Origin: Modicisalibacter xianhensis
GTDB taxonomy: Bacteria; Pseudomonadota; Gammaproteobacteria; Pseudomonadales; Halomonadaceae
DNA length: 64,000 nt
Assembly: GCF_900113605.1 (NCBI RefSeq)
Contig: NZ_FOPY01000001.1
Coordinates: 69,669-133,668, forward strand
Direction: 5' to 3'
The position numbers were made by a program, and so were the translations under genes. Positions 11,513 to 45,538 of this stretch are shown in pieces; positions within the stretch are counted from its first letter, which is position 1; each line of letters begins with the position of its first letter. Under the pieces are notes generated by a model that saw only the letters and a list, made by a program, of their open reading frames with translations, searched no databases and was not told the origin of the DNA.

Positions 11513-12736
11513 TCAGGGGCCGTAGTGACGCCCATCGAGAAAGCGATCCGCCATCATTACGATGTCGCCACGGTCGCCCGCCAGGCGCCAAGCGGCGTCA
11601 TGCGCCCCTTCGGCTTTGCTGTCGACCAACGGTACGGAAATACCCAGGTCGGCGGCGGCCTGCCGATACAGATCGGGACGCACGCAGCGCTCGACGACAC
11701 CCTGCAGGTCGATATTCTTGTCCAGGTGCCCCCAGCGTTGCATCTGTCGGGCATACCACAGCGTCTGCGAGTGCCAGGGGAAGTTGGCAGCATGCCGGTG
11801 GAACAGGGTCGCTCCTGCCAGCCCGCCCTCCTCCCGGCTCGACGAGGCCTGTTGAGGATCGCGCAGTCCTGACTCGACGACTGCCGGAGACACGTCCAGA
11901 TACCCGCCCAGGCAAAGCAGCCTGGCTGCCTGCTCCCGGTTGCCAGGTTCGTCGAGCCATCGGCACGCACGCAGCAGGGCCCGCAGCAGAGCCCGATGCG
12001 TATTCGGGTATTGCTGCGCCCACGCCTCACGTACGCCGAACACTTTTTCCTGACTGCCACCCCAGATATCGAAACTTCCGCACAGCATACGCCCCTGGCC
12101 GCGGCTCGCCGCCAGCCGGTTCCAGGGCTCGCCGACACAATAGCCGTCGAGCCGCCCGGACTCGAGCTGTGACGCCATCAACGTTGGCGGCACCACACGC
12201 AACTCCAGATCGTTTTCCGGGTCGATCCCCCCGGCCGCCAACCAGTAGCGCAATAGGTAGCGATGCGAGGAGAACGCGTACACATTGGCAAAGCGAAGCT
12301 TCGACTCGCCGGTCTCACGTCTCGTCTCGATCACCTGTGCCAGCGCCTTCGCCTGAGCCACCGGCGAGCGCATCGCATCAGGATCCAGCGCGATCATGTG
12401 CGCGTGAACCGCCTGCGAGACCGTAATGGCATTACCGCCCAGGTTCAGCGTCATCGCCGAGATCAGTGGAATGGCGCGGCCATCCAGACCCAGCGTAGAC
12501 GCCAGAGGCATCAGCGCCAGCATCTGGGCCCCATCAAGCATGCCCAACTGCATGCCGTCTCGCAGACCTGCCCACGAGGCCTCGACGCTTAACGACACAT
12601 CCAGTCCTTCATCGGCAAAAAACCCTTTTTCCAGGGCGACGATGAGCGGCGCGGCATCGTTGAGCGGCAACATTCCCAGCGTCAGGCGCTGCAGCTCAGG
12701 CTTTGGATTATTCCCGTCAGCCAGGGTCGAGTTCAT
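11513..12736 (-). CDS. nasS: NasS nitrate/nitrite sensor (NrtA-like, cytoplasmic)
   Basis: A 407-residue protein related to the NrtA/CmpA periplasmic binding proteins (LRFANVYAFSSHRYLLRYWLA, GRLDGYCVGEPWN, FHRHAANFPWHSQTLWYARQM). It has no signal peptide or lipobox, which is the hallmark of NasS. In Azotobacter and Paracoccus, NasS holds NasT inactive until nitrate or nitrite binds. The gene starts 9 bases after the nasT stop, so the two are co-transcribed and probably made in balanced amounts. Their likely targets are the narK, nasA and nasB-nirBD leaders in this window. Confidence 0.92.
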   Translation of the reverse strand: MNSTLADGNNPKPELQRLTLGMLPLNDAAPLIVALEKGFFADEGLDVSLSVEASWAGLRDGMQLGMLDGAQMLALMPLASTLGLDGRAIPLISAMTLNLGGNAITVSQAVHAHMIALDPDAMRSPVAQAKALAQVIETRRETGESKLRFANVYAFSSHRYLLRYWLAAGGIDPENDLELRVVPPTLMASQLESGRLDGYCVGEPWNRLAASRGQGRMLCGSFDIWGGSQEKVFGVREAWAQQYPNTHRALLRALLRACRWLDEPGNREQAARLLCLGGYLDVSPAVVESGLRDPQQASSSREEGGLAGATLFHRHAANFPWHSQTLWYARQMQRWGHLDKNIDLQGVVERCVRPDLYRQAAADLGISVPLVDSKAEGAHDAAWRLAGDRGDIVMMADRFLDGRHYGP

Positions 12737-12745
12737 GCACTTCTC

Positions 12746-13327
12746 CTACTTTGCTTTCTTGCCCGTGGCGGACAGCAGTTCCTGGGCCAACTCATGGATC
12801 GTCATGCGTCGGTTCATGGCCGTCTTGCGCATGTATTGGTATGCCGCATCTTCGCCAAGGCCTCGCATCTCCATGATGGCGGCCTTGGCGCGATCGATCG
12901 CGCGGCGCTGTGCCAGGCTCTCCTGGGTACGGCTCAATTCTCCCTTGAGCGCACGATAGGACTCGAAGCTGGAAATCGATACGTTGAGCATAGACCGCAC
13001 CAATGCCGGGTTGATGCTGTCGACGACATAGGCGCTCACGCCGGCCTGGGTGGCCTGCTGCGTCAGATCCGGCGTTTCTTCCTCGGCCAGCATGATCATC
13101 GGCTTGGGATAGCGTCGCCCCAGCTGCCCCAGGTGCTCCAGCGTATCGCGGCTGGGCAGTGCCGCATCAACGATCACGGCGTCCGGCTGCAGCGCCTCCA
13201 TGGTGATGTAGAGGTCGTCCTGCTCGTCCACGGTCGAGACAACGTCGAAACCGGCCTCGACGAGTGCTTCCTCCAGTGCCCGGGAGCGCTCGTCCTTGGT
13301 GTCCACGATCAGCACCCTGATAGCCAT
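12746..13327 (-). CDS. nasT: NasT ANTAR-domain antiterminator
   Basis: A 193-residue protein with a receiver-like domain (1-120; VLIVDTKDERSRALEEAL at the start and D51-type acidic position in DAVIVDAAL) and an ANTAR RNA-binding domain (about 130-190; RRAIDRAKAAIMEMRGLGEDAAYQYMRKTAM). ANTAR proteins bind paired stem-loops with six-base loops and prevent terminator formation. NasT is released from NasS when nitrate or nitrite is present. First gene of nasT-nasS, behind a candidate sigma-54 promoter. GGGGAG precedes the ATG. Confidence 0.93.
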   Translation of the reverse strand: MAIRVLIVDTKDERSRALEEALVEAGFDVVSTVDEQDDLYITMEALQPDAVIVDAALPSRDTLEHLGQLGRRYPKPMIMLAEEETPDLTQQATQAGVSAYVVDSINPALVRSMLNVSISSFESYRALKGELSRTQESLAQRRAIDRAKAAIMEMRGLGEDAAYQYMRKTAMNRRMTIHELAQELLSATGKKAK

Positions 13328-13735: not shown

Positions 13736-13752
13736 TGGCATGCAAGGTGCTT
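13736..13752 (+). promoter_or_regulatory. Candidate sigma-54 promoter of narK
   Basis: TGGCATGCAAGGTGCTT carries GG (13737-13738) and GC (13749-13750) with 10 bases between. It follows an AT-rich stretch that could serve an IHF-type bend. Predicted start near 13762. Confidence 0.75.
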
Positions 13753-13778
13753 GTTGAAAAACACAGGACGTGGACCAG

Positions 13779-13830
13779 GCTTGCGCGACCAAGTACGAGT
13801 GCGTCGAACCCGGACCTTCAATGCCGAAGG
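13779..13830 (+). promoter_or_regulatory. Candidate NasT-binding leader stem-loops before narK
   Basis: Two hairpins lie in the predicted leader. First, GCTTG/CAAGT with loop CGCGAC (13779-13794). Second, CCTTC/GAAGG with loop AATGCC (13815-13830). The second loop has A at position 1 and G at position 4, as ANTAR targets do; the first has G4 but C1. I do not see a T-run terminator between the second hairpin and the narK start, so the mode of action is uncertain. Confidence 0.5.
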
Positions 13831-37142: not shown

Positions 37143-38054
37143 TCATGCCCGTTGTGTCTTCGCCTCGTGCTGCCGTGCCTCTTCAGCCATCCGAACCACG
37201 CTACCCACCACGATCAGGCACGGCGATGGCAGCGGATTTTCGGCAAGCGTCTGTGGCATGTCTGCCAGCGTCCCGATCAGGGTCTGTTGTTCCGGCAGGC
37301 TGGCATTGGCGATGAGCAACATCGGCCAGTCGTCGGGCAGTCCTGCGCCACGCAGGCCACGGCTGATCGCTTCGACCTTGGACAGCCCCATGTAGAACAC
37401 CAACGTCTCATCGGTGCGCGCCAGTGCTTGCCAGTCAGGTGTACCGTCGACCCGGCATTGCTGGGCAGTAATGAAACGCACCTGCTGGGCGTGGGCACGA
37501 TCGGTCAGCGCCATGCCCATCGCGGCGGCAGCTCCCGAGGCGGCGGTGATGCCAGGAACGATCTCGGACTCCACATTAGCGGCGTACAACGCGCCGAGCT
37601 CCTCGCCCATGCGGCCGAAAATGCCAGGGTCCCCTCCTTTCAGGCGCACCACCGACTTGCCCTGCTGCGCCAATTTGACCAGCATCGCGCCGATCTCGGC
37701 CTGCGGCACGCTGTGGTGCCCGGCGGCCTTGCCGACATAGTAGCGCTCGTGACCGGTGGGAATCATCGCCAGGATGTCATCACCGACCAGGCGGTCGTAG
37801 ACGACGGCATCGGCCTGGGCCAGCAGGCGTGCGGCACGCAGTGTCAGCAAGTCAGCGTTGCCCGGCCCGGCCCCTACCAGGTAGACCTTGCCCTGCCGGC
37901 ACTCGCCTCGTGTGGTCAGGGTGATGTCCAGGTCATTCCGCTTCAGGTCATTCGTGACCGAAAGGGCCCGCGAGCCGCCTACCAGGCGGGGCAGGAAACC
38001 CAGGAAGTCAGGCAGTTTCGGCTTCCACTGCTTGAGTAGCGTGATCATGGGCAT
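37143..38054 (-). CDS. cobA: Uroporphyrinogen-III C-methyltransferase (SUMT)
   Basis: A 303-residue protein with SAM-dependent methylase motifs VYLVGAGPGNADLLTLRAARL and VVRLKGGDPGIFGRMGEE, as in CobA/CysG-A. It methylates uroporphyrinogen III to precorrin-2, the first step to siroheme, which NirB encoded nearby needs. The first 50 residues are an extension not typical of SUMT, so the true start could be downstream. It overlaps the nasA 3' end by about 47 bases on the same strand, so nasA-cobA is one operon. The oxidation and iron-insertion step (CysG-B) is not in the window. Confidence 0.92.
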   Translation of the reverse strand: MPMITLLKQWKPKLPDFLGFLPRLVGGSRALSVTNDLKRNDLDITLTTRGECRQGKVYLVGAGPGNADLLTLRAARLLAQADAVVYDRLVGDDILAMIPTGHERYYVGKAAGHHSVPQAEIGAMLVKLAQQGKSVVRLKGGDPGIFGRMGEELGALYAANVESEIVPGITAASGAAAAMGMALTDRAHAQQVRFITAQQCRVDGTPDWQALARTDETLVFYMGLSKVEAISRGLRGAGLPDDWPMLLIANASLPEQQTLIGTLADMPQTLAENPLPSPCLIVVGSVVRMAEEARQHEAKTQRA

Positions 38055-40761
38055 GTTCCTCTTCGATCAATGATTTCAATTCCGGAATGCAGGAGCCACA
38101 TTGGGTGCCACAGGCCAGCCGTGCACCCAGGGCCTCGACACTGGTATCGCCATGACGGATGGCCTCGACGATGGCCTTGCGACCGACCTGATGGCAGCTG
38201 CACACGGTCGGGCCGGCATCGGCCTCACCGGCATCGCAGCCAGCCAACAGGCGGCGGCGCAGGTCACTGGGCAGCGGTGTGTCGAGTGCCGCCTCGGCAA
38301 AGCGTGCATCCAGCCAGTTGAGGGCGGGCAGCTCGGCAGGCGAACCGACCATCAGCCACCAGCTCAGCCGGCCGTTTTCGAAGCCGGCGGCACGCAGCCT
38401 CCCACTGCCGGCATCCTCGGCCCACAGTGCCGGCTCGCCAGGGAGGTAGGCTTTCGCCCAGGCGAGCCAGTCGCGCTGCACTTTATCCACCCCGCCGCAG
38501 GCGCTTCCTGACTCCCCGCCGGCCAGTTGCCAGCGTCGGCAATTTTCCAACGGGATATAGGCCCAATAGGTACTGTCGTCGCACCAGGCCGGGGCGCAGT
38601 CGCTTTCGGCGGCGAGAACCAGCGTGGCCTCCCAGCCGATGTTCAGCGGCGCCAGCCCGACGGCGCCATGCTTGGACTCGGGCTGACCGGAGACCGGGTC
38701 GAGATAGGCGGCAAGCAACCCGCCCATGCGTGCCTTGCCACTGAAGCTGTCGTTCCAGTGCATGGGCACGAAGACCTCGCCGCGGCGCATGGCATGCGAG
38801 ACACGCACGCGACCAATGTAGTCACCGCCCGCCCCGTCCAGGCGAGCCAGTTGCTGATCGTTCAGGTCAAGGCTTGCCGCATCCTCGGGATGCACCTCGA
38901 TGAACGGCTCGGCGCGATGGTTCATCAGCCGCGGAGCGCGGGCAGTGCGTGTCATGGTGTGCCACTGGTCACGCACGCGGCCGGTATTGAGGCGTAATGG
39001 ACGAGACTCACTCAAGGCCTGTTCAGGGCCACGCGGGCGAACAGGGATCAACCTGGCGCGGCCATCCGGGGTGGCAAAGTGCCCATCGGTGAACAGCCTT
39101 GCCGTGCCCTCAGGCGCCGTGGCATTGACCGGCCACTGGATCGGCGCGAGCGCATCATAAGCGGCGCGATCGAGCCCGGCCAGTCCGGAAATATCGAATG
39201 GTCGGGTGCTATCGCCTGCGTTTTCGAATCCGGAAAGCCGCGCATGCTCGTCGAATATATCGCCGGGATGCGTGTAATCGAACGCTTCGCCGAAACCCAT
39301 GCGGGTCGCTATCTGAGAAATGATCCACCAGTCGTGGCGTGCCTCGCCCGGCGGCGGCAGCATGCCGCGTTGACGCGAGATACGCCGCTCGGAGTTGGTA
39401 ACGGTGCCATCCTTCTCGGACCAGCTCGAGGCCGGCAGCACGATATCGGCGTATTGAAGAATGTCGGCATTGGCCATGCAGTCGGAAACGATCACCAACG
39501 GGCAGGCCGCCAGGATGCGACGCATGCGATTGGCGTCGGGCAAGCTGACACCGGGATTGGTCGCCATGATCCAGACGGCCCGGATCTCACCGCGCTCGAT
39601 GGCCTCGAACAACTCGACCGCCTTGTACCCCGGCTCCTCGGGCAGACTCGGCGCCAGCGAGCCGGTCGCCCAGAAACGCGTGACACGATCGATGGCACCG
39701 GGGGTATGGTAGTCCATGTGGGCCGCAAGCTGGTTGGCCAATCCCCCCACCTCGCGCCCGCCCATGGCGTTGGGCTGGCCGGTGATCGAGAACGGTCCGG
39801 CGCCGGGCAGGCCGATCTTGCCGCCCGCTAGATGGCAGTTGATGATCGCGTTGCACTTGTCGGTGCCGCTGCTCGATTGATTGATGCCCTGGGAATACAA
39901 CGTCACCACGTGAAGCTGTGTGGCGAACCAGTAGAAGAACGTTTCCAGGCGTTCGGGATCGACATCGCAGTCGCTGGCAATGGCATCGATGCGACAATCT
40001 TCCTGATGGGCGGCAGCGAGTGCCTCGTCGATGCCCTGGGTATGGCGCTCCAGGTAGATACGGTCGAGTCGCCGTTTGGCGTCCATCCAGGCCAGCAGGC
40101 CATTGAACAGCCGCGCATCGCTACCGGGCCGAATCCCCAGATACAGATCGGCGATCTCGCAGGTATCGGTAACGCGTGGATCGATCACCACCACGCGCAT
40201 CAGCGGGTTGCGCTGCTTGGCAGTACGCAGGCGCTGGAACAGCACCGGGTGGTTCCAGGCCAGGTTGGAGCCGACCAGCACCACTAGCTCGGCCTCTTCC
40301 AAGTCCTCGTAGTTGCAGGGCACGGCGTCGGCGCCCAGCGAGCGCTTGTAGGCGGCCACGGCCGAGGCCATGCACAGCCGAGAATTGGTATCCAGATGCG
40401 GCGTACCGAGAAACCCTTTGAACAGCTTGTTAGCGACGTAATAGTCCTCGGTCAGCAACTGGCCGGACAGATACGCCGCTACGGATTGGTGGCCATGCTT
40501 GCGCTGGATATCGGCCAGGCGTGTCGCGACCGTATCCAGAGCGGTATCCCAATCCACTTCGCCACCATCGACCCGGGGCCGGGTCAGGCGCCCATGATTG
40601 CCCAGCGTTTCATGCAGTGCCGAACCCTTGACGCAAAGACGCCCGTAATTGGCAGGGTGGTCACGGTCGCCTTCGACACTCATCACGGTACAGCCGTCAT
40701 GCGTGGCAATCACGCCACAGCCGACCCCACAGTACGGACACGTCGTGGAAGCCTGATTCAT
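38008..40761 (-). CDS. nasA: Assimilatory nitrate reductase catalytic subunit
   Basis: A 917-residue molybdoenzyme. The N-terminal [4Fe-4S] site is C8, C11, C15 and C43, followed by Mo-bis-MGD oxidoreductase domains (YSQGINQSSSGTDKCNAIINCH, TGQPNAMGGREVGG) and a molybdopterin dinucleotide-binding domain (LNTGRVRDQWHTMTRT). The C-terminal BFD-like [2Fe-2S] domain (TVCSCHQVGRKAI, ACGTQCGSCIPEL) is found in many NasA proteins. It has no Tat signal, so it is cytoplasmic. It reduces nitrate to nitrite using electrons from NasB or ferredoxin. AGGAGG before the ATG at 40761 decides the start. Divergent from nasB-nirBD. Confidence 0.94.
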   Translation of the reverse strand: MNQASTTCPYCGVGCGVIATHDGCTVMSVEGDRDHPANYGRLCVKGSALHETLGNHGRLTRPRVDGGEVDWDTALDTVATRLADIQRKHGHQSVAAYLSGQLLTEDYYVANKLFKGFLGTPHLDTNSRLCMASAVAAYKRSLGADAVPCNYEDLEEAELVVLVGSNLAWNHPVLFQRLRTAKQRNPLMRVVVIDPRVTDTCEIADLYLGIRPGSDARLFNGLLAWMDAKRRLDRIYLERHTQGIDEALAAAHQEDCRIDAIASDCDVDPERLETFFYWFATQLHVVTLYSQGINQSSSGTDKCNAIINCHLAGGKIGLPGAGPFSITGQPNAMGGREVGGLANQLAAHMDYHTPGAIDRVTRFWATGSLAPSLPEEPGYKAVELFEAIERGEIRAVWIMATNPGVSLPDANRMRRILAACPLVIVSDCMANADILQYADIVLPASSWSEKDGTVTNSERRISRQRGMLPPPGEARHDWWIISQIATRMGFGEAFDYTHPGDIFDEHARLSGFENAGDSTRPFDISGLAGLDRAAYDALAPIQWPVNATAPEGTARLFTDGHFATPDGRARLIPVRPRGPEQALSESRPLRLNTGRVRDQWHTMTRTARAPRLMNHRAEPFIEVHPEDAASLDLNDQQLARLDGAGGDYIGRVRVSHAMRRGEVFVPMHWNDSFSGKARMGGLLAAYLDPVSGQPESKHGAVGLAPLNIGWEATLVLAAESDCAPAWCDDSTYWAYIPLENCRRWQLAGGESGSACGGVDKVQRDWLAWAKAYLPGEPALWAEDAGSGRLRAAGFENGRLSWWLMVGSPAELPALNWLDARFAEAALDTPLPSDLRRRLLAGCDAGEADAGPTVCSCHQVGRKAIVEAIRHGDTSVEALGARLACGTQCGSCIPELKSLIEEEHAHDHATQAVEAETA

Positions 40762-40777: not shown

Positions 40778-40820
40778 GCAAAGGGGCCCGACCCGCCATT
40801 GGCGGATCGGGCCCCTTTGC
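40778..40820 (-). promoter_or_regulatory. Strong leader hairpin ahead of nasA
   Basis: A 14-bp perfect stem (gcaaaggggcccga with its complement), extended by 5 more pairs after one mismatch, ending 6 bases before the nasA ribosome site. It looks like an attenuator, but no T-run follows, so termination may be weak or rho-linked. Confidence 0.6.
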
Positions 40821-40852
40821 CCGGAATCATTGGTTCACCTGTCGTTCCCTCA

Positions 40853-40886
40853 AGACTGCTGTCTAGCGATGTGCCGCCGTTGGCAC
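40853..40886 (-). promoter_or_regulatory. Candidate NasT-binding stem-loops before nasA
   Basis: Minus strand: GTGCC/GGCAC around hexaloop AACGGC (A at position 1, G at position 4; 40871-40886), then AGAC/GTCT around a 4-base loop (40853-40864). Both lie between the predicted start at 40915 and the large hairpin at 40778-40820. Confidence 0.55.
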
Positions 40887-40925
40887 AGCACCGGGAACAC
40901 GGCGCGAAAATCTAGACCTTACTGC

Positions 40926-40941
40926 AGCAACAACCGAGCCT
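40926..40941 (-). promoter_or_regulatory. Candidate sigma-54 promoter of nasA-cobA
   Basis: Minus-strand AGGCTCGGTTGTTGCT has GG and GC exactly 10 bases apart with TTGC at -12. Predicted start near 40915, giving a 154-base leader. Confidence 0.65.
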
Positions 40942-41028
40942 GGTAAACGACAATCCTTACAAAACAGACATTTGCGTAAAACCACTTCCTTTGTTTATCG
41001 CTGTGCCCGTGGAAAGCGCTCAGTTCAT

Positions 41029-41045
41029 CGCGCCACACTGGTGCA
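41029..41045. promoter_or_regulatory. Candidate NtrC-type enhancer between nasA and nasB
   Basis: CGCGCCACACTGGTGCA has a perfect GGTGCA half and 4 of 6 matches in the other arm, at NtrC spacing. It lies about 120-145 bases upstream of both predicted divergent starts. A nearby palindrome TGCAC-N5-GTGCA (41060-41074) has a spacer two bases short. Confidence 0.45.
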
Positions 41046-41153
41046 GCAGCAGCCGATTTTGCACAGCCAGTGCACGCCAAGCGACTACCCAACGCTTTCG
41101 TCTTGTTAAACAGAACACGGCAATCCATTGAAGATAATGGATAAACTTCGTCC

Positions 41154-41169
41154 TGGCACACCCTTCGCT
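41154..41169 (+). promoter_or_regulatory. Candidate sigma-54 promoter of nasB-nirBD
   Basis: TGGCACACCCTTCGCT: GG at 41155-41156 and GC at 41167-41168, 10 bases apart, with the TGGCAC -24 box intact. Predicted start near 41180. Confidence 0.75.
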
Positions 41170-41187
41170 AATTCCTGAGCAAGGATA

Positions 41188-41205
41188 GGGATCACTGTCG
41201 ATCCC
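41188..41205 (+). promoter_or_regulatory. Candidate NasT-binding hairpin in the nasB leader
   Basis: A perfect 6-bp stem GGGATC/GATCCC closing hexaloop ACTGTC, with A at position 1 and G at position 4. It lies about 8 bases into the predicted transcript. A second hexaloop hairpin, AAGAC/GTCTT with ACTGCA, sits at 41306-41321 inside the terminator. Confidence 0.65.
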
Positions 41206-41286
41206 GGGCGATCAGCCACGCTGCGCTCGATATCCAGCAGCCCTTGACAGGGCTGCCATCACAACGCAAGTGAGACCGAATTAGGC

Positions 41287-41341
41287 AAAGGCGCCTGACG
41301 GAGCGAAGACACTGCAGTCTTTCCGCCGTCAGGCGCTTTTT
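41287..41341 (+). terminator. Attenuator terminator in the nasB-nirBD leader
   Basis: An 11-bp perfect stem gcgcctgacgg/ccgtcaggcgc followed by TTTTT at 41337-41341, only 21 bases before the nasB start and downstream of a strong promoter. Its apex holds an inner hairpin AAGAC-ACTGCA-GTCTT with A1/G4 in the loop. A terminator here makes sense only if it is relieved under some condition, as NasT-type antitermination does. Confidence 0.85.
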
Positions 41342-41362
41342 CGTTGATGGGAGACACGCAAC

Positions 41363-42646
41363 ATGCGAACCCACGAAACGCAACCCGGCATCCAGGCTTG
41401 CCTGGACGAGCATCTGGTTATCGTCGGCAACGGCATGGCCGGGCATCGCCTGCTCGAGGCGCTGCTCAAGCATCAGCGCCGGCCACAACGCATCACCGTG
41501 ATCGGCGAGGAGCGCGCGCCGGCCTACAACCGGATTCTGCTCTCGCCCTGGCTGGCCGGTGAAACCGAGCGTGAGGCCCTGACCCTGCGCGACACCGGCT
41601 GGTATGCCGACCAGGGTGTCGACCTGATCCTTGGCGAACGGGTCATCGATGTGGACCGTGCGCAGCGTCATGTAATGACCGATAGCGGTCGCGTGCTTGC
41701 CTATGACCGTCTGGTTCTCGCTACCGGCTCGCGTCCGGCCATGCCCGACGTGCCGGGCATCGACCTGGCCGGTATCCATGGCTTTCGCGATCTCGACGAT
41801 GCCGCCGCACTGACCCACGCTGCCGAAACCGCCACACCCGACGGCAACCGCGCGGTTGTCGTGGGCGGCGGTCTGCTCGGCCTGGAAGCCGCCGAAGGGC
41901 TGCGCAAGCGTGGCATGCAGGTCACCGTACTGCAGCGCAGCCAGCAATTGATGAACCGCCAGCTCGATATTACCGCTGCCACGCTGCTGCAGGATGAGCT
42001 TGAACGTCGCGGTCTGGAGGTTATCACTGGCGCGCAATTGAGCGGTTTCGATGGCGACGCCGAGGGCAACGTACGCGCCGTGCAACTCGCCGATGGTCGC
42101 CGCCTGGCGGCAGATTGCGTGGTGGTGGCCGCCGGCATTACCCCCAATGCGGAACTCGGCACCTGGATGGGCCTGACCATGGCACGTGGCATCGTCGTGG
42201 ACGCCTGGCTGACGTCCAGCGATCCCGCTATCCATGCGTTGGGCGAGTGCTGCGAATTCGAAGGCCGCACCTATGGCCTGGTCGAGCCCATCTGGCGTCA
42301 GGTCGAGGTGCTGGCGGCCCGCCTGTGTCACGACAGCGTCGAGGGCTATGTCGAGGCGCCCACCGCCACCAAGCTCAAGGTCAGCGGTGTCTCGCTGTAT
42401 GCCTTTGGCCCCATCGAGCCCGATGCCGGTCACGAAGTGCTCACCTATCACGACCCGCAGCATGGCGACTATCGCCGACTGCTGCTGCGCAACAACCGTC
42501 TCGAAGGCGCCGTGCTTTACGGGGACACCGCCTTCGGCCCCTGGTATTTCGAACAATCCCTTGCCGGGCGCGATCTCGGCGCCTGTCGTCAGGCCCTGCT
42601 GTTTGGCGCCGGCGATGCCAAACCGCTTCTTGAGGAGGCCGCATAA
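41363..42646 (+). CDS. nasB: FAD-dependent NADH:nitrate reductase electron-transfer subunit
   Basis: A 427-residue pyridine nucleotide-disulphide oxidoreductase: FAD motif LVIVGNGMAGHRLLEALL, NAD motif VVVGGGLLGLEAAEGLRKRG and FAD motif IHALGECCEFEGR. It resembles the N-terminal half of NirB but lacks its [2Fe-2S] and sirohaem parts, as do Bacillus NasB and Klebsiella NasC N-terminal regions that pass electrons from NADH to NasA. First gene of nasB-nirB-nirD, preceded by an attenuator leader; nirB starts 2 bases after its stop. GGGAG is the ribosome site. Confidence 0.87.
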   Translation: MRTHETQPGIQACLDEHLVIVGNGMAGHRLLEALLKHQRRPQRITVIGEERAPAYNRILLSPWLAGETEREALTLRDTGWYADQGVDLILGERVIDVDRAQRHVMTDSGRVLAYDRLVLATGSRPAMPDVPGIDLAGIHGFRDLDDAAALTHAAETATPDGNRAVVVGGGLLGLEAAEGLRKRGMQVTVLQRSQQLMNRQLDITAATLLQDELERRGLEVITGAQLSGFDGDAEGNVRAVQLADGRRLAADCVVVAAGITPNAELGTWMGLTMARGIVVDAWLTSSDPAIHALGECCEFEGRTYGLVEPIWRQVEVLAARLCHDSVEGYVEAPTATKLKVSGVSLYAFGPIEPDAGHEVLTYHDPQHGDYRRLLLRNNRLEGAVLYGDTAFGPWYFEQSLAGRDLGACRQALLFGAGDAKPLLEEAA

Positions 42647-42648
42647 CC

Positions 42649-45153
42649 ATGAGCAAGCAACGTCTGATCATCATCGGCAACGGCATGGTCGGCCACCATC
42701 TGGTCGAGCAACTCATCGAACGCAATGCCACCGAACGCTACGACATCGTGGTATTCGGCGAAGAGCGCCATCGCGCCTACGACCGCGTCCACCTTTCCGA
42801 GTACTTCGGCGGTCGCGATGCCCAGTCGCTGGCCATGTGCGACGCTGATTTCTATGCCGCCAACGGTATCGAGCTGCGCCTGGACGAGTGCGTGACACGC
42901 ATCGACCGCGATGACAGCCGGATCGTCACGCCGCAGGGTGAATACGCTTACGACAGCCTGGTCCTGGCGACCGGCTCCTACCCCTTCGTGCCGCCGATTG
43001 CCGGCGCCGAAGAAGGCCAGCCCAACCGTCTCGTCTATCGCACCCTGGACGATCTCGACCAGATCCGTGACGCTGCCGACGGCGCCAAGCGCGGCGTGGT
43101 GGTCGGCGGCGGCCTGCTCGGCCTCGAAGCGGCGAATGCGCTGAAGTCGCTGGGCCTCGAGGCCCATGTGGTCGAGTTCGCGCTCCGCTTGATGCCGGTA
43201 CAGCTCGACGACCAGGGCGGTGAGGCACTGCGCACCAAGATCGAGGAACTGGGCGTGGGCGTGCATCTCAACCGCGCCACCACCGAGATCGTGGCAGGCG
43301 AGACATTCCGTTACCGCATGAACTTCAAGGACGGCGAACACCTCGAGACCGACCTGATCGTCTTCTCGGCCGGTATTCGTCCTCAGGATGCGCTGGCTCG
43401 CGAGTGCAAGCTGGAGATTGGCGAACGGGGCGGGGTCGTCGTCGATGACCAGTGTCGTACCTCCGACCCGGAGATCTTTGCCATTGGCGAATGCGCCCTA
43501 TGGAGCAACCGCATCTTCGGTCTGGTCGCCCCCGGGTACACCATGGCGCGCAACGTGGCCGACTCCCTGTGCTGCAACGAGGGTGACGAAGAGCCGAGCT
43601 TCAGCGGCGCCGACATGTCGACCAAGCTCAAGCTGCTCGGGGTTGACGTCGGCTCGATCGGCGATGCCCATGCTGCCACCGAGGGTGCCAAGAGCTATCG
43701 CTACAGTGACGAGTCCGAAGGCGTCTATCGCCGCCTGGTAGTGTCCAAGGACGGCAAGAAAGCCATCGGCGCCGTGCTGGTCGGCGACAACAGTCTCTAC
43801 GACACCTTGTTGCAGTATGCCCAGAACGGCATCGACCTGCCGGCCGACCCGGCATCGCTGATCCTGCCGAGTGTGGAAGGCGCGCCGACCCTGGGTGCCG
43901 ACGCCCTGCCCGATTCGGCCTCGATCTGCTCGTGCCACAACGTCACCAAGGTGGCGATCTGTGCCGCCATCGACGCCGGCGCCAGCGACCTGGCGTCGGT
44001 CAAGGGCGATACCAAGGCGAGCACCGGCTGCGGTGGCTGCGCGGCCCTGCTCAAGAGCGTGGTCGATAGCGAGCTCGAAGCTCGGGGGGTGGAAGTCGAC
44101 CAGTCGATCTGCGAGCACTTTGCCCATACGCGCCAGGAGCTTTACTCCATCGTGCGTGTCGAGGGCATCAAGACCTTCAGCGAACTGATCGCCAAGCATG
44201 GGCATGGCCTGGGTTGCGATATCTGCAAGCCGACAGTCGCATCGATCCTCGCCTCGTGCTTCAACGAACCCATCACCGATGCCGCCCATGTGCCGCTGCA
44301 GGACACCAACGACACCTTCATGGCCAACATGCAGAAGAACGGTACCTATTCCGTGGTACCGCGCGTGCCCGGTGGCGAGATCACCCCGGACAAACTGCTG
44401 GTGCTCGGCCAGGTGGCCCAGAAATACAATCTTTATACCAAGGTCACCGGAGGCCAGCGCATCGACCTGTTTGGCGCGCATCTCGAGGATCTGCCGAATA
44501 TCTGGGGCGAGTTGCTCGAGGCTGGCTTCGAGACCGGTCACGCCTACGCCAAGTCGCTGCGCACGGTGAAGTCCTGCGTCGGCAGCACCTGGTGCCGCTA
44601 CGGCGTGCAGGACAGCGTGGGCATGGCGATCCAGCTGGAAAACCGCTACAAGGGCCTGCGCTCACCGCACAAGCTCAAGCTCGCCGTGTCCGGCTGTACC
44701 CGCGAATGCGCCGAGGCACAGAGCAAGGATGTCGGCGTGATCGCCACCGAGAACGGCTGGAACCTCTACGTCTGCGGCAACGGTGGCATGCGCCCGCGCC
44801 ATGCCGAGCTGCTGGCCACCGACCTCGACGACGAGACGCTGATCCGCTACATCGACCGCTTCCTGATGTTCTACGTGCGCACCGCGGATCGCCTGCAGCG
44901 CACCTCGGTGTGGCGCGAAAACCTCGAGGGCGGTCTCGATTACATCAAGGACGTGGTCTGTAACGATAGCCTGGGCCTGGGCGAAGAGCTCGAACAGCAG
45001 ATGCAGACGGTCATCGACAACTACGAGTGCGAGTGGGCCAATGCCATCAGCGACCCCGAGAAGCTCAAGCGATTCCGCAGCTTCGTCAACGACGCGCGCC
45101 CAGACCCGGACATCATCATGACGAGCGAGCGTGGCCAATTGCGTCCGGCTTAA
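42649..45153 (+). CDS. nirB: NADH-dependent assimilatory nitrite reductase large subunit
   Basis: An 834-residue protein: FAD/NAD module (1-410; IIGNGMVGHHLVEQL, VVGGGLLGLEAANALKSLG), BFD-like [2Fe-2S] domain (SICSCHNVTKVAICAAI, TGCGGCAALL), a second Cys pair region (GLGCDICKPTV), then the ferredoxin-like and sirohaem/[4Fe-4S] domains with ligands C643, C649, C683 and C687. It reduces nitrite to ammonium with six electrons from NADH, in the cytoplasm with NirD. It needs sirohaem, whose first committed step is made by CobA across the divergent region. Confidence 0.95.
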   Translation: MSKQRLIIIGNGMVGHHLVEQLIERNATERYDIVVFGEERHRAYDRVHLSEYFGGRDAQSLAMCDADFYAANGIELRLDECVTRIDRDDSRIVTPQGEYAYDSLVLATGSYPFVPPIAGAEEGQPNRLVYRTLDDLDQIRDAADGAKRGVVVGGGLLGLEAANALKSLGLEAHVVEFALRLMPVQLDDQGGEALRTKIEELGVGVHLNRATTEIVAGETFRYRMNFKDGEHLETDLIVFSAGIRPQDALARECKLEIGERGGVVVDDQCRTSDPEIFAIGECALWSNRIFGLVAPGYTMARNVADSLCCNEGDEEPSFSGADMSTKLKLLGVDVGSIGDAHAATEGAKSYRYSDESEGVYRRLVVSKDGKKAIGAVLVGDNSLYDTLLQYAQNGIDLPADPASLILPSVEGAPTLGADALPDSASICSCHNVTKVAICAAIDAGASDLASVKGDTKASTGCGGCAALLKSVVDSELEARGVEVDQSICEHFAHTRQELYSIVRVEGIKTFSELIAKHGHGLGCDICKPTVASILASCFNEPITDAAHVPLQDTNDTFMANMQKNGTYSVVPRVPGGEITPDKLLVLGQVAQKYNLYTKVTGGQRIDLFGAHLEDLPNIWGELLEAGFETGHAYAKSLRTVKSCVGSTWCRYGVQDSVGMAIQLENRYKGLRSPHKLKLAVSGCTRECAEAQSKDVGVIATENGWNLYVCGNGGMRPRHAELLATDLDDETLIRYIDRFLMFYVRTADRLQRTSVWRENLEGGLDYIKDVVCNDSLGLGEELEQQMQTVIDNYECEWANAISDPEKLKRFRSFVNDARPDPDIIMTSERGQLRPA

Positions 45154-45169
45154 TTCGAGGAGAACCATC

Positions 45170-45538
45170 ATGAGCACTGCAACGGCATTGAAGAATGAAG
45201 TTACCTGGCAACCCCTCTGCTCCAAGGCGGATCTGGTCGCATTTTCCGGCGTGGCGGCGTGGTTGGAGACGACCGGCGGTCCCGCCCAGGTGGCGCTGTT
45301 CTATATCCCGGGTCACGAGACGGAGCTGTTCGCCGTGGACAACCACGACCCGCTGGGCAACGCCAACGTGATCGCCCGCGGCATCATTGGCGATGTGAAG
45401 GGAGAACCAGTCGTCGCCTCACCGCTTTACAAACAGCACTATCGGTTGCGCGACGGGGCATGCCTGGAAGAACCAGGCGTTAGCCTGCGTACCTGGCCGG
45501 TGAAGTTCGAGGGCGACAGGGTCATGGTCGCCGCCTGA
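45170..45538 (+). CDS. nirD: Nitrite reductase small subunit
   Basis: A 122-residue Rieske-fold protein (LFYIPGHETELFAVDNHDPLGNANVIARGIIGD) lacking the Cys-His ligand pairs of true Rieske proteins, as is normal for NirD. It pairs with NirB. GAGGAG lies 8 bases before the ATG at 45170, 16 bases after nirB. A hairpin follows the stop. Confidence 0.95.
   Translation: MSTATALKNEVTWQPLCSKADLVAFSGVAAWLETTGGPAQVALFYIPGHETELFAVDNHDPLGNANVIARGIIGDVKGEPVVASPLYKQHYRLRDGACLEEPGVSLRTWPVKFEGDRVMVAA

Follow-up and report, generated by a model that had tools for sequence, protein, structure and literature searches.

A predicted NasT-dependent dual-hexaloop leader ahead of the nasB-nirBD operon of Modicisalibacter xianhensis

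The nasB-nirBD locus

The window described here is the whole 64,000-nucleotide stretch of Modicisalibacter xianhensis DNA that was analyzed. It carries nasB-nirBD on the plus strand, nasA divergent from it, and the regulatory genes nasT and nasS.

41363-42646, plus strand: nasB, FAD/NAD reductase (named by context), first gene of the operon
42649-45153, plus strand: nirB (TIGR02374, NF011565)
45131-45538, plus strand: nirD (TIGR02378)
38008-40761, minus strand: nasA, molybdopterin nitrate reductase (start codon inferred)
12746-13327, minus strand: nasT, with a receiver and an ANTAR domain
11513-12736, minus strand: nasS, NMT1-like protein (named by context), adjoining nasT

The start of nasA is probably ATG 40761 rather than the longer open reading frame start at 40830, because that frame would run through the leader of nasA. 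An initial annotation of the window, made from sequence alone, had placed a nasT gene in it. The gene is indeed there, and with a cutoff of E 0.001 its product is the sole ANTAR match of the genome. This protein aligns to the solved ANTAR proteins 1s8n, 6wsh/6ww6, 4akk, and 1qo0. The following elements lie in the DNA ahead of nasB.

41030-41044, plus strand: NtrC-like site 1, GCGCCACACTGGTGC, a sequence match kept in the genus
41060-41076, plus strand: NtrC-like site 2, TGCACAGCCAGTGCACG, with a TGCACA half-site
41154-41169, plus strand: sigma-54 promoter, TGGCACACCCTTCGCT, called from sequence and genus comparison
41188-41205, plus strand: P1 hairpin GGGATC-ACTGTC-GATCCC, an ANTAR hexaloop with A at position 1 (A1) and G at position 4 (G4), called from sequence and from genus and family comparison
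41206-41280, plus strand: P1-P2 linker, folded (41206-41278, -28.2 kcal/mol)
41281-41298, plus strand: P2 antiterminator hairpin TTAGGC-AAAGGC-GCCTGA (A1, G4), called from sequence and from genus and family comparison
41288-41341, plus strand: intrinsic terminator with an 11-bp core (GCGCCTGACGG/CCGTCAGGCGC), an apex hairpin, and a run of five T (T5), called from sequence and folding
41306-41321, plus strand: apex hairpin AAGAC-ACTGCA-GTCTT (A1/G4), called from sequence and not conserved

Two sets of genomes were compared with the window. A NasB orthologue (at least 77% identity) is found in 7 of 14 genomes of the genus, five of which have the leader. In the family, NasB is encoded in 118 of 201 genomes (E up to 1e-150), each of which was analyzed for the DNA upstream of the gene.

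Promoter and upstream sites

A scan of the window with the sigma-54 consensus alone gives two matches where 0.84 are expected, and the NtrC-like site alone gives one where 0.96 are expected; neither is beyond chance. The calls are based instead on conservation at near-constant spacing. In all seven NasB-bearing genomes of the genus a sigma-54 box is found, the first NtrC-like site starts 121-125 bp ahead of it, and the TGCACA half-site of site 2 lies 30 bp after site 1. Site 1 is named by what we take to be the NtrC consensus. The sigma-54 promoter proposed in the initial annotation is thus present at 41154-41169 and kept at this spacing, and transcription of the leader would start at about 41180.

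Two conserved hexaloop hairpins

The upstream hairpin, P1, lies where it had first been proposed and folds alone at -8.6 kcal/mol. It is kept in all five leader-bearing genomes of the genus with the loops ACTGTC, AACGAT, AAAGAT, AAAGAC, and AGCGTC, in which A1 and G4 are constant while the other bases vary. Family leaders were searched for P1 over the 150 nt that precede P2 by a rule that asks for a six-base loop and at least five Watson-Crick pairs and does not presuppose A1/G4. An A1/G4 hairpin is found in 104 of 116 leaders, and any other combination at positions 1 and 4 in at most 12 of 116. P1 exceeds chance expectation in the family leaders. Position 2 of the window loop is C, and it is A in 100 of 105. 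A candidate P1 nearer to P2, TCAC-AACGCA(A)-GTGA (41259-41273), was dropped; by eye it is missing from the other four leaders of the genus.

The downstream hairpin, P2, had been overlooked. It is canonical, lies at the published P2 position, and folds alone at -6.7 kcal/mol. Its 3' arm, GCCTGA, is also the lower part of the 5' arm of the terminator, and P2 and the full terminator are therefore mutually exclusive. All five leader-bearing genomes of the genus contain AGGC-AAAGGC-GCCT within P2. In the family, P2 is found in 116 of the 118 NasB-bearing genomes, 111 times by rule and five times by motif. The rule (GRC-N6-GYC over the 5' arm of the terminator) has pairing built in, so that the pairing is not itself evidence. 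All 111 rule-found loops have G at position 4; at position 1, 88 have A and 23 have G (nine ties were assigned to the upstream candidate). The five further leaders carry GACAACGACGTC, a motif that contains A1/G4 and hence gives no independent evidence. Taken together, G4 is present in all 116 loops, A1 in 93, and G1 in 23. The G1 loops (GAAGAC or GAAGGC) occur in all five leaders of g12, two of g21, one of g23, and 15 of 36 in g20. A G appears to be tolerated at position 1 of P2.

Two earlier counts of P2 were discarded. The first (92 A1/G4) counted some P1 hairpins as P2 in leaders whose terminator had been extended too far (seen in L073, L084, L123). Under a stricter rule 43 of 118 leaders dropped out, 41 of them in addition to the two leaderless cases, and others were placed in the wrong register, 10 of them with C1/G4.

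All papers are cited here from excerpts. The definition of ANTAR dual-hexaloop leaders, as excerpted (PMC3369931), calls for a P1 with a six-nucleotide loop carrying A1 and G4 on a stem of 3 bp or more, which the window has, and for a P2, which the window also has and which in the family is A1/G4 in 93 and G1/G4 in 23 of 116. It further calls for an intrinsic terminator whose 5' arm is overlapped by the 3' arm of P2, as is seen in the window, and for an ANTAR protein, here the one NasT-like protein of the genome. A pattern search for P2 plus terminator in the genome gives nine matches, as against three for a reversed-pattern control, and these include the leaders of nasA and nasB. The covariance models of Rfam 15 gave no match to the nasB leader at the gathering score, only chance-level ones above it. 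Among the literature matches listed, judged by title and start of abstract, none appears to describe dual-hexaloop leaders in Halomonadaceae.

The terminator and its apex

The terminator is present as first described, with its 11-bp stem and T5. The hairpin (41288-41340) folds at -34.1 kcal/mol, the T5 occupies 41337-41341, and 21 nt separate the end of the T-run from the nasB ATG (41363). A simple terminator scan listed none in the leader region, which we attribute to the interrupted apex.

This apex holds the A1/G4 hexaloop of the initial annotation, which folds alone at -5.1 kcal/mol. It had been proposed that NasT binds there and relieves the terminator directly, with no need of a separate competing hairpin. 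The hexaloop does exist at 41306-41321, and a second one is found in the genus (L003, ATAGCA). It can also form alongside P2 and could thus be a third site in this lineage. Its proposed significance is not supported. Within the genus two of five leaders have it, and an A1/G4 apex loop with at least four pairs occurs in 7 of 116 family leaders. This is no excess over other loops, of which C1/C4 (18), C1/T4 (11), G1/G4 (10), and T1/C4 (9) are commoner. Binding at the apex would presumably stabilize the terminator rather than melt it, and the conserved P2 already provides a competing hairpin. We consider direct relief through the apex extremely unlikely; its A1/G4 loop may be due to chance or be a lineage-specific extra. 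A conserved pair of A1/G4 hexaloops does exist, as P1 with P2 (allowing for G1 in 23 of 116 P2 loops), and not as P1 with the apex.

The P2 loop and the terminator

The P2 3' arm doubles as terminator, and NasT might instead act on P1 only, with the P2-like sequence a by-product of an A-tract and a palindromic terminator base. Excerpted work shows that EutV binds single hexaloops (PMC8934654) and that the downstream hairpin HII of Paracoccus tolerated mutation (PMC5424462). P1 is also distant from P2 in leaders with long linkers. Loop bases 2 to 6 of P2 lie in or beside the terminator stem, and their constancy could therefore stem from the terminator. Among the 97 terminators with a located partner, A1 and A2 face U in 77 and 90, respectively, and their constancy may be due in part to the terminator A-tract. 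The constancy of G4 is not explained by terminator pairing, since the base stays G whether the terminator partner is U (51 of 97) or C (46 of 97).

The size of the loop also argues against control through P1 only. When terminators were located without reference to P2 and at least four Watson-Crick pairs were required, 84 of 116 leaders had a competing hairpin with a 6-nt loop over the terminator 5' arm. Loops of 8 nt were found in 36 leaders (some of them identical stems in which the uppermost pair is open), loops of 10 nt in 22, of 4 nt in 19, and of each remaining size in at most 17. The 5' arm of P2 (GRC) lies outside the terminator and is complementary to the 3' arm (GGC/GCC or GAC/GTC), a match that the rule demands. 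The P2 stem and its terminator partner read GGC/GCC/GGC in 63 leaders, GAC/GTC/GGC in 20, GAC/GTC/GAC in 10, and otherwise in four, with the partner not located in 19 (n = 116); the partner was sought by pairing, and the agreement is a matter of consistency, not proof. Control by a single hexaloop is, on this evidence, very unlikely.

The linker between P1 and P2

The linker of the window is 78 nt when measured from P1 to the 3-bp core of P2. Across 115 family leaders (L064 has no P1 and is left out, six P1 were chosen by hand, and some weak stems of 3-4 bp were kept), it ranges from 7 to 214 nt; it is at most 14 nt in 42, at most 25 nt in 71, and at least 45 nt in 28. In the excerpted literature, the linkers of eut leaders are 5-12 nt long and one of 14 nt drastically lowers induction (PMC3369931). 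The dual-hexaloop definition in the same excerpt leaves the linker variable (PMC3369931), and a curation of actinobacterial ANTAR RNAs, as excerpted, used linkers of 2-25 nt (PMC8164766). The window leader, at 78 nt, is outside the eut-type spacing and is not classed with the eut leaders. A search designed around short linkers would probably overlook leaders of this kind.

The long linkers are steadier than their shuffled counterparts (z below -1 in 24 of 28, median -2.07), and those of the genus of the window have a median z of only -0.57. The idea that folding restores the proximity of P1 and P2 was given up as unsupported: real linkers bring the two no closer, with 14.5 unpaired nt compared to 11.75 in shuffled ones.

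The longest linker, 214 nt in L136 (G054), holds a stretch of about 100 nt, GCGCAAGGCGCACGGAGC...GTATAGGTGAGGATT, that by eye also follows the terminator in L055 (G162). This dispersed stretch looks like a mobile or repeat element.

Leaders of this kind are also found outside the family. An order-level survey read 30 of 91 NirB loci, 25 of them outside the family, by a rule that presupposes A or G at position 1 plus G4. P1, P2, and terminator were found in three of the 25 (linkers of 40, 70, and 33 nt) and P2 only in four, counts that stand without a shuffle control. Long-linker leaders are thus not peculiar to this genome.

Co-occurrence with NasT and NasS

An ANTAR match is found in 149 of the 201 family genomes. 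Leader and ANTAR protein are both present in 116 of the 118 NasB-bearing genomes and both absent from the other two (Fisher p 1.4e-4). These two, G004 and G013, belong to one genus, and the joint absence may go back to a single loss event. NasS (E up to 1e-40) is found in the five leader-bearing genomes of the genus and in neither G004 nor G013. Both of the latter retain the pair of NtrC-like sites, spaced by 30 bp, and their sigma-54 box lies 124-125 bp from the point where the first site begins. The nitrate half of the control would thus have been lost and the nitrogen half kept, as the model of a NasT-dependent leader predicts.

The terminator might instead be constitutive, trimming the 5' RNA or giving a separate small RNA, with incidental hexaloops. 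A terminator so near a gene could leak. The hexaloop pair is conserved across genera, and it is absent jointly with NasT and NasS, and we regard a constitutive terminator as having next to no likelihood. The initial reading of a sigma-54 leader under NasT, with P1 as the ANTAR hairpin and a terminator that must be relieved, is supported by the comparison.

Most open frames with an ANTAR match in the family fall into two size classes, roughly 195-330 aa (NasT-like) and roughly 400-500 aa (possibly NasR-like), and similar leaders occur with both. In G003 the NasS match (C2:350249-351464) consists of two overlapping pieces, the first with two internal stop codons. The nasS gene may be broken there, and NasT would then be expected to be free.

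The nasA and narK leaders

A mirror leader, absent from the initial annotation, precedes the divergent nasA.

40926-40941, minus strand: sigma-54-like box, AGGCTCGGTTGTTGCT, read by eye
40870-40887, minus strand: nasA P1 hairpin TGTGCC-AACGGC-GGCACA, from genus comparison
40808-40823, minus strand: nasA P2 hairpin CGGGC-AAAGGG-GCCCG, overlapping a terminator-like hairpin at its base, from genus comparison and a genome-wide pattern
40780-40816, minus strand: terminator-like hairpin with a weak U-tract of three U

By eye, GG-N10-GC is found in all five nasA sequences of the genus; a pattern search reported none. The P1 core GCC-AAYGGC-GGC (only 3 bp in some) and the P2 sequence GGGC-AAAGGG-GCYC over a terminator-like hairpin are each present in all five leader-bearing genomes, with linkers of about 43-51 nt as counted from their positions. 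The two genomes of the genus that have NasB but no ANTAR match showed no hairpins of the nasA type on the minus strand.

The narK gene (13874, plus strand) has a sigma-54-like box of its own at 13736-13751. It is preceded by an RNA motif that was recognized by comparison.

13763-13830, plus strand: conserved narK leader RNA motif, GRCGTRGACCAGGC-helix-YACGAGTGCGTC

Of 143 genomes with narK, 50 narK leaders were read. An almost invariant core is found in 39 of these (motif loci L154-L159, L240-L263, L294-L313, and L316). In a comparison of 23 of the 36 distinct cores, its inner helix has two-sided changes in three of five pairs. The number of two-sided cells, 21, was reached by none of 500 shuffles, and the number of such pairs by 165 of 500. 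An A1/G4 hexaloop hairpin follows within 60 nt of the core in 29 of the 39, as CCTTC-AANGNN-GAAGG or CCTC-AANGAC-GAGG, and a 30th is of another type; it is missing in the seven g2 genomes read and in two of g16. In the ANTAR-less G013 the core is kept and the hexaloop stem is shortened. No terminator was seen in the narK leader of the window. Seven of the 11 coreless leaders have, by eye, a canonical P1-P2-terminator arrangement, and four have neither, all in genomes with no ANTAR match.

A model of the narK core has one match in its own genome (60.2 bits) and matches in 4 of 369 genomes of the class, two of which belong to the family. One match in another family (48.1 bits) lies, by eye, before a narK-like gene that adjoins a nasT-like one; near a weak match (29.6 bits) no narK was seen. 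Seven of the motif loci were tried against Rfam 15 and gave no match at the gathering score. The canonical dual-hexaloop terminator leader replaces the motif in 7 of 50 leaders, which suggests that the motif provides the same control by another mechanism or is a riboswitch-like element.

Comparison with known ANTAR systems

The Rfam family RF00625, named "Pseudomonas sRNA P11", is presumably NalA, the leader of Pseudomonas nirBD. At E up to 10 it matches nothing in 40900-41500, and its covariance model has no match at the gathering score anywhere in the window.

The excerpted literature offers precedents for paired hexaloops in which P2 overlaps the terminator base (PMC3369931; PMC8934654; PMC3369936). 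In Pseudomonas, NasT binds the NalA leader of nirBD and prevents the terminator, NasS restrains NasT in the absence of nitrate, and the promoter depends on sigma-54 and NtrC (PMC12830290, as excerpted). The sigma-54 boxes and terminator of NalA are described in a genome paper (PMC3973561, likewise an excerpt). The present leader resembles NalA in operon function, in its sigma-54/NtrC promoter, in a terminator before nirB, and in the presence of NasT and NasS (PMC12830290; PMC3973561). It differs in that nasB precedes nirBD and nasA is divergent with a leader of its own.

The leader shares with nasF of Klebsiella the nitrate control predicted here, the A1/G4 hexaloop of P1, and a P2 over the terminator base, but the excerpt describes NasR there as a single protein with a nitrate-sensing domain, whereas a NasS/NasT pair is found here (PMC3369936). 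With the eut leaders bound by EutV in Enterococcus it shares the order of P1, linker, P2, and terminator and the hexaloop rule; unlike their short linkers, its linker is long and folded (PMC3369931, in excerpt). The nasA leader of Paracoccus is controlled by NasS and NasT, as is predicted for the present one, and has two hairpins, HI and HII, though its gene order is different and HII tolerated a three-base change (PMC5424462, an excerpt). There, HI is required for nitrate induction and a change in it cripples expression, while changing HII made little difference with nitrate and caused a twofold rise in the low activity seen with ammonium (PMC5424462). The HII result fits a terminator and gives no support for a needed P2 in Paracoccus.

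Predicted mechanism and significance

The leader of nasB is best read as an ANTAR (NasT) dual-hexaloop antiterminator of a known kind, behind what appears to be a promoter of the sigma-54/NtrC type, and it very probably serves as a NasT-dependent transcription attenuator of nasB-nirBD. The two hairpins, their placement on the terminator, their conservation, and their joint absence with NasT and NasS can be read from the genomes compared; the nitrate signal, the binding of NasT, and the order of events are modeled on published NasT, NasR, and EutV systems. Under nitrogen limitation, NtrC would cause the sigma-54 promoter to fire, and RNA polymerase would reach the intrinsic terminator 21 nt ahead of nasB. 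When nitrate is absent, NasS would hold NasT and the terminator would form. In the presence of nitrate or nitrite, free NasT would bind first the P1 hexaloop and next the P2 hexaloop. P2 would capture a strand of the bottom of the terminator stem, leaving a short apex hairpin off the U-tract, and transcription would continue. The minimum free energy favors the terminator by 14.5 kcal/mol (-78.1 kcal/mol free as against -63.6 with P2 forced), and P2 must therefore win in time and with protein. The G1 found in 23 of 116 P2 loops runs against the prediction from EutV mutants.

It is possible, though on balance doubtful, that the 5-12 nt rule of EutV is not general; this would follow if leaders with linkers of 7-214 nt, which are often folded and in one genome hold the dispersed stretch, work. 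Such spacing would favor recruitment of NasT at P1 with a hand-over to P2 over one dimer that grips both. The range of linkers bears on an open question in the ANTAR field, that of one dimer using two hexaloops (PMC8934654, as excerpted), and it offers a natural series for testing P1-P2 spacing. G004 and G013, which have neither NasT, NasS, nor either leader and retain the promoter, offer a natural control. What began as a guess about one hairpin becomes a switch that can be tested across the family, and nasA and nasB-nirBD are nitrate assimilation operons of a halophile that are predicted to answer to NasT.
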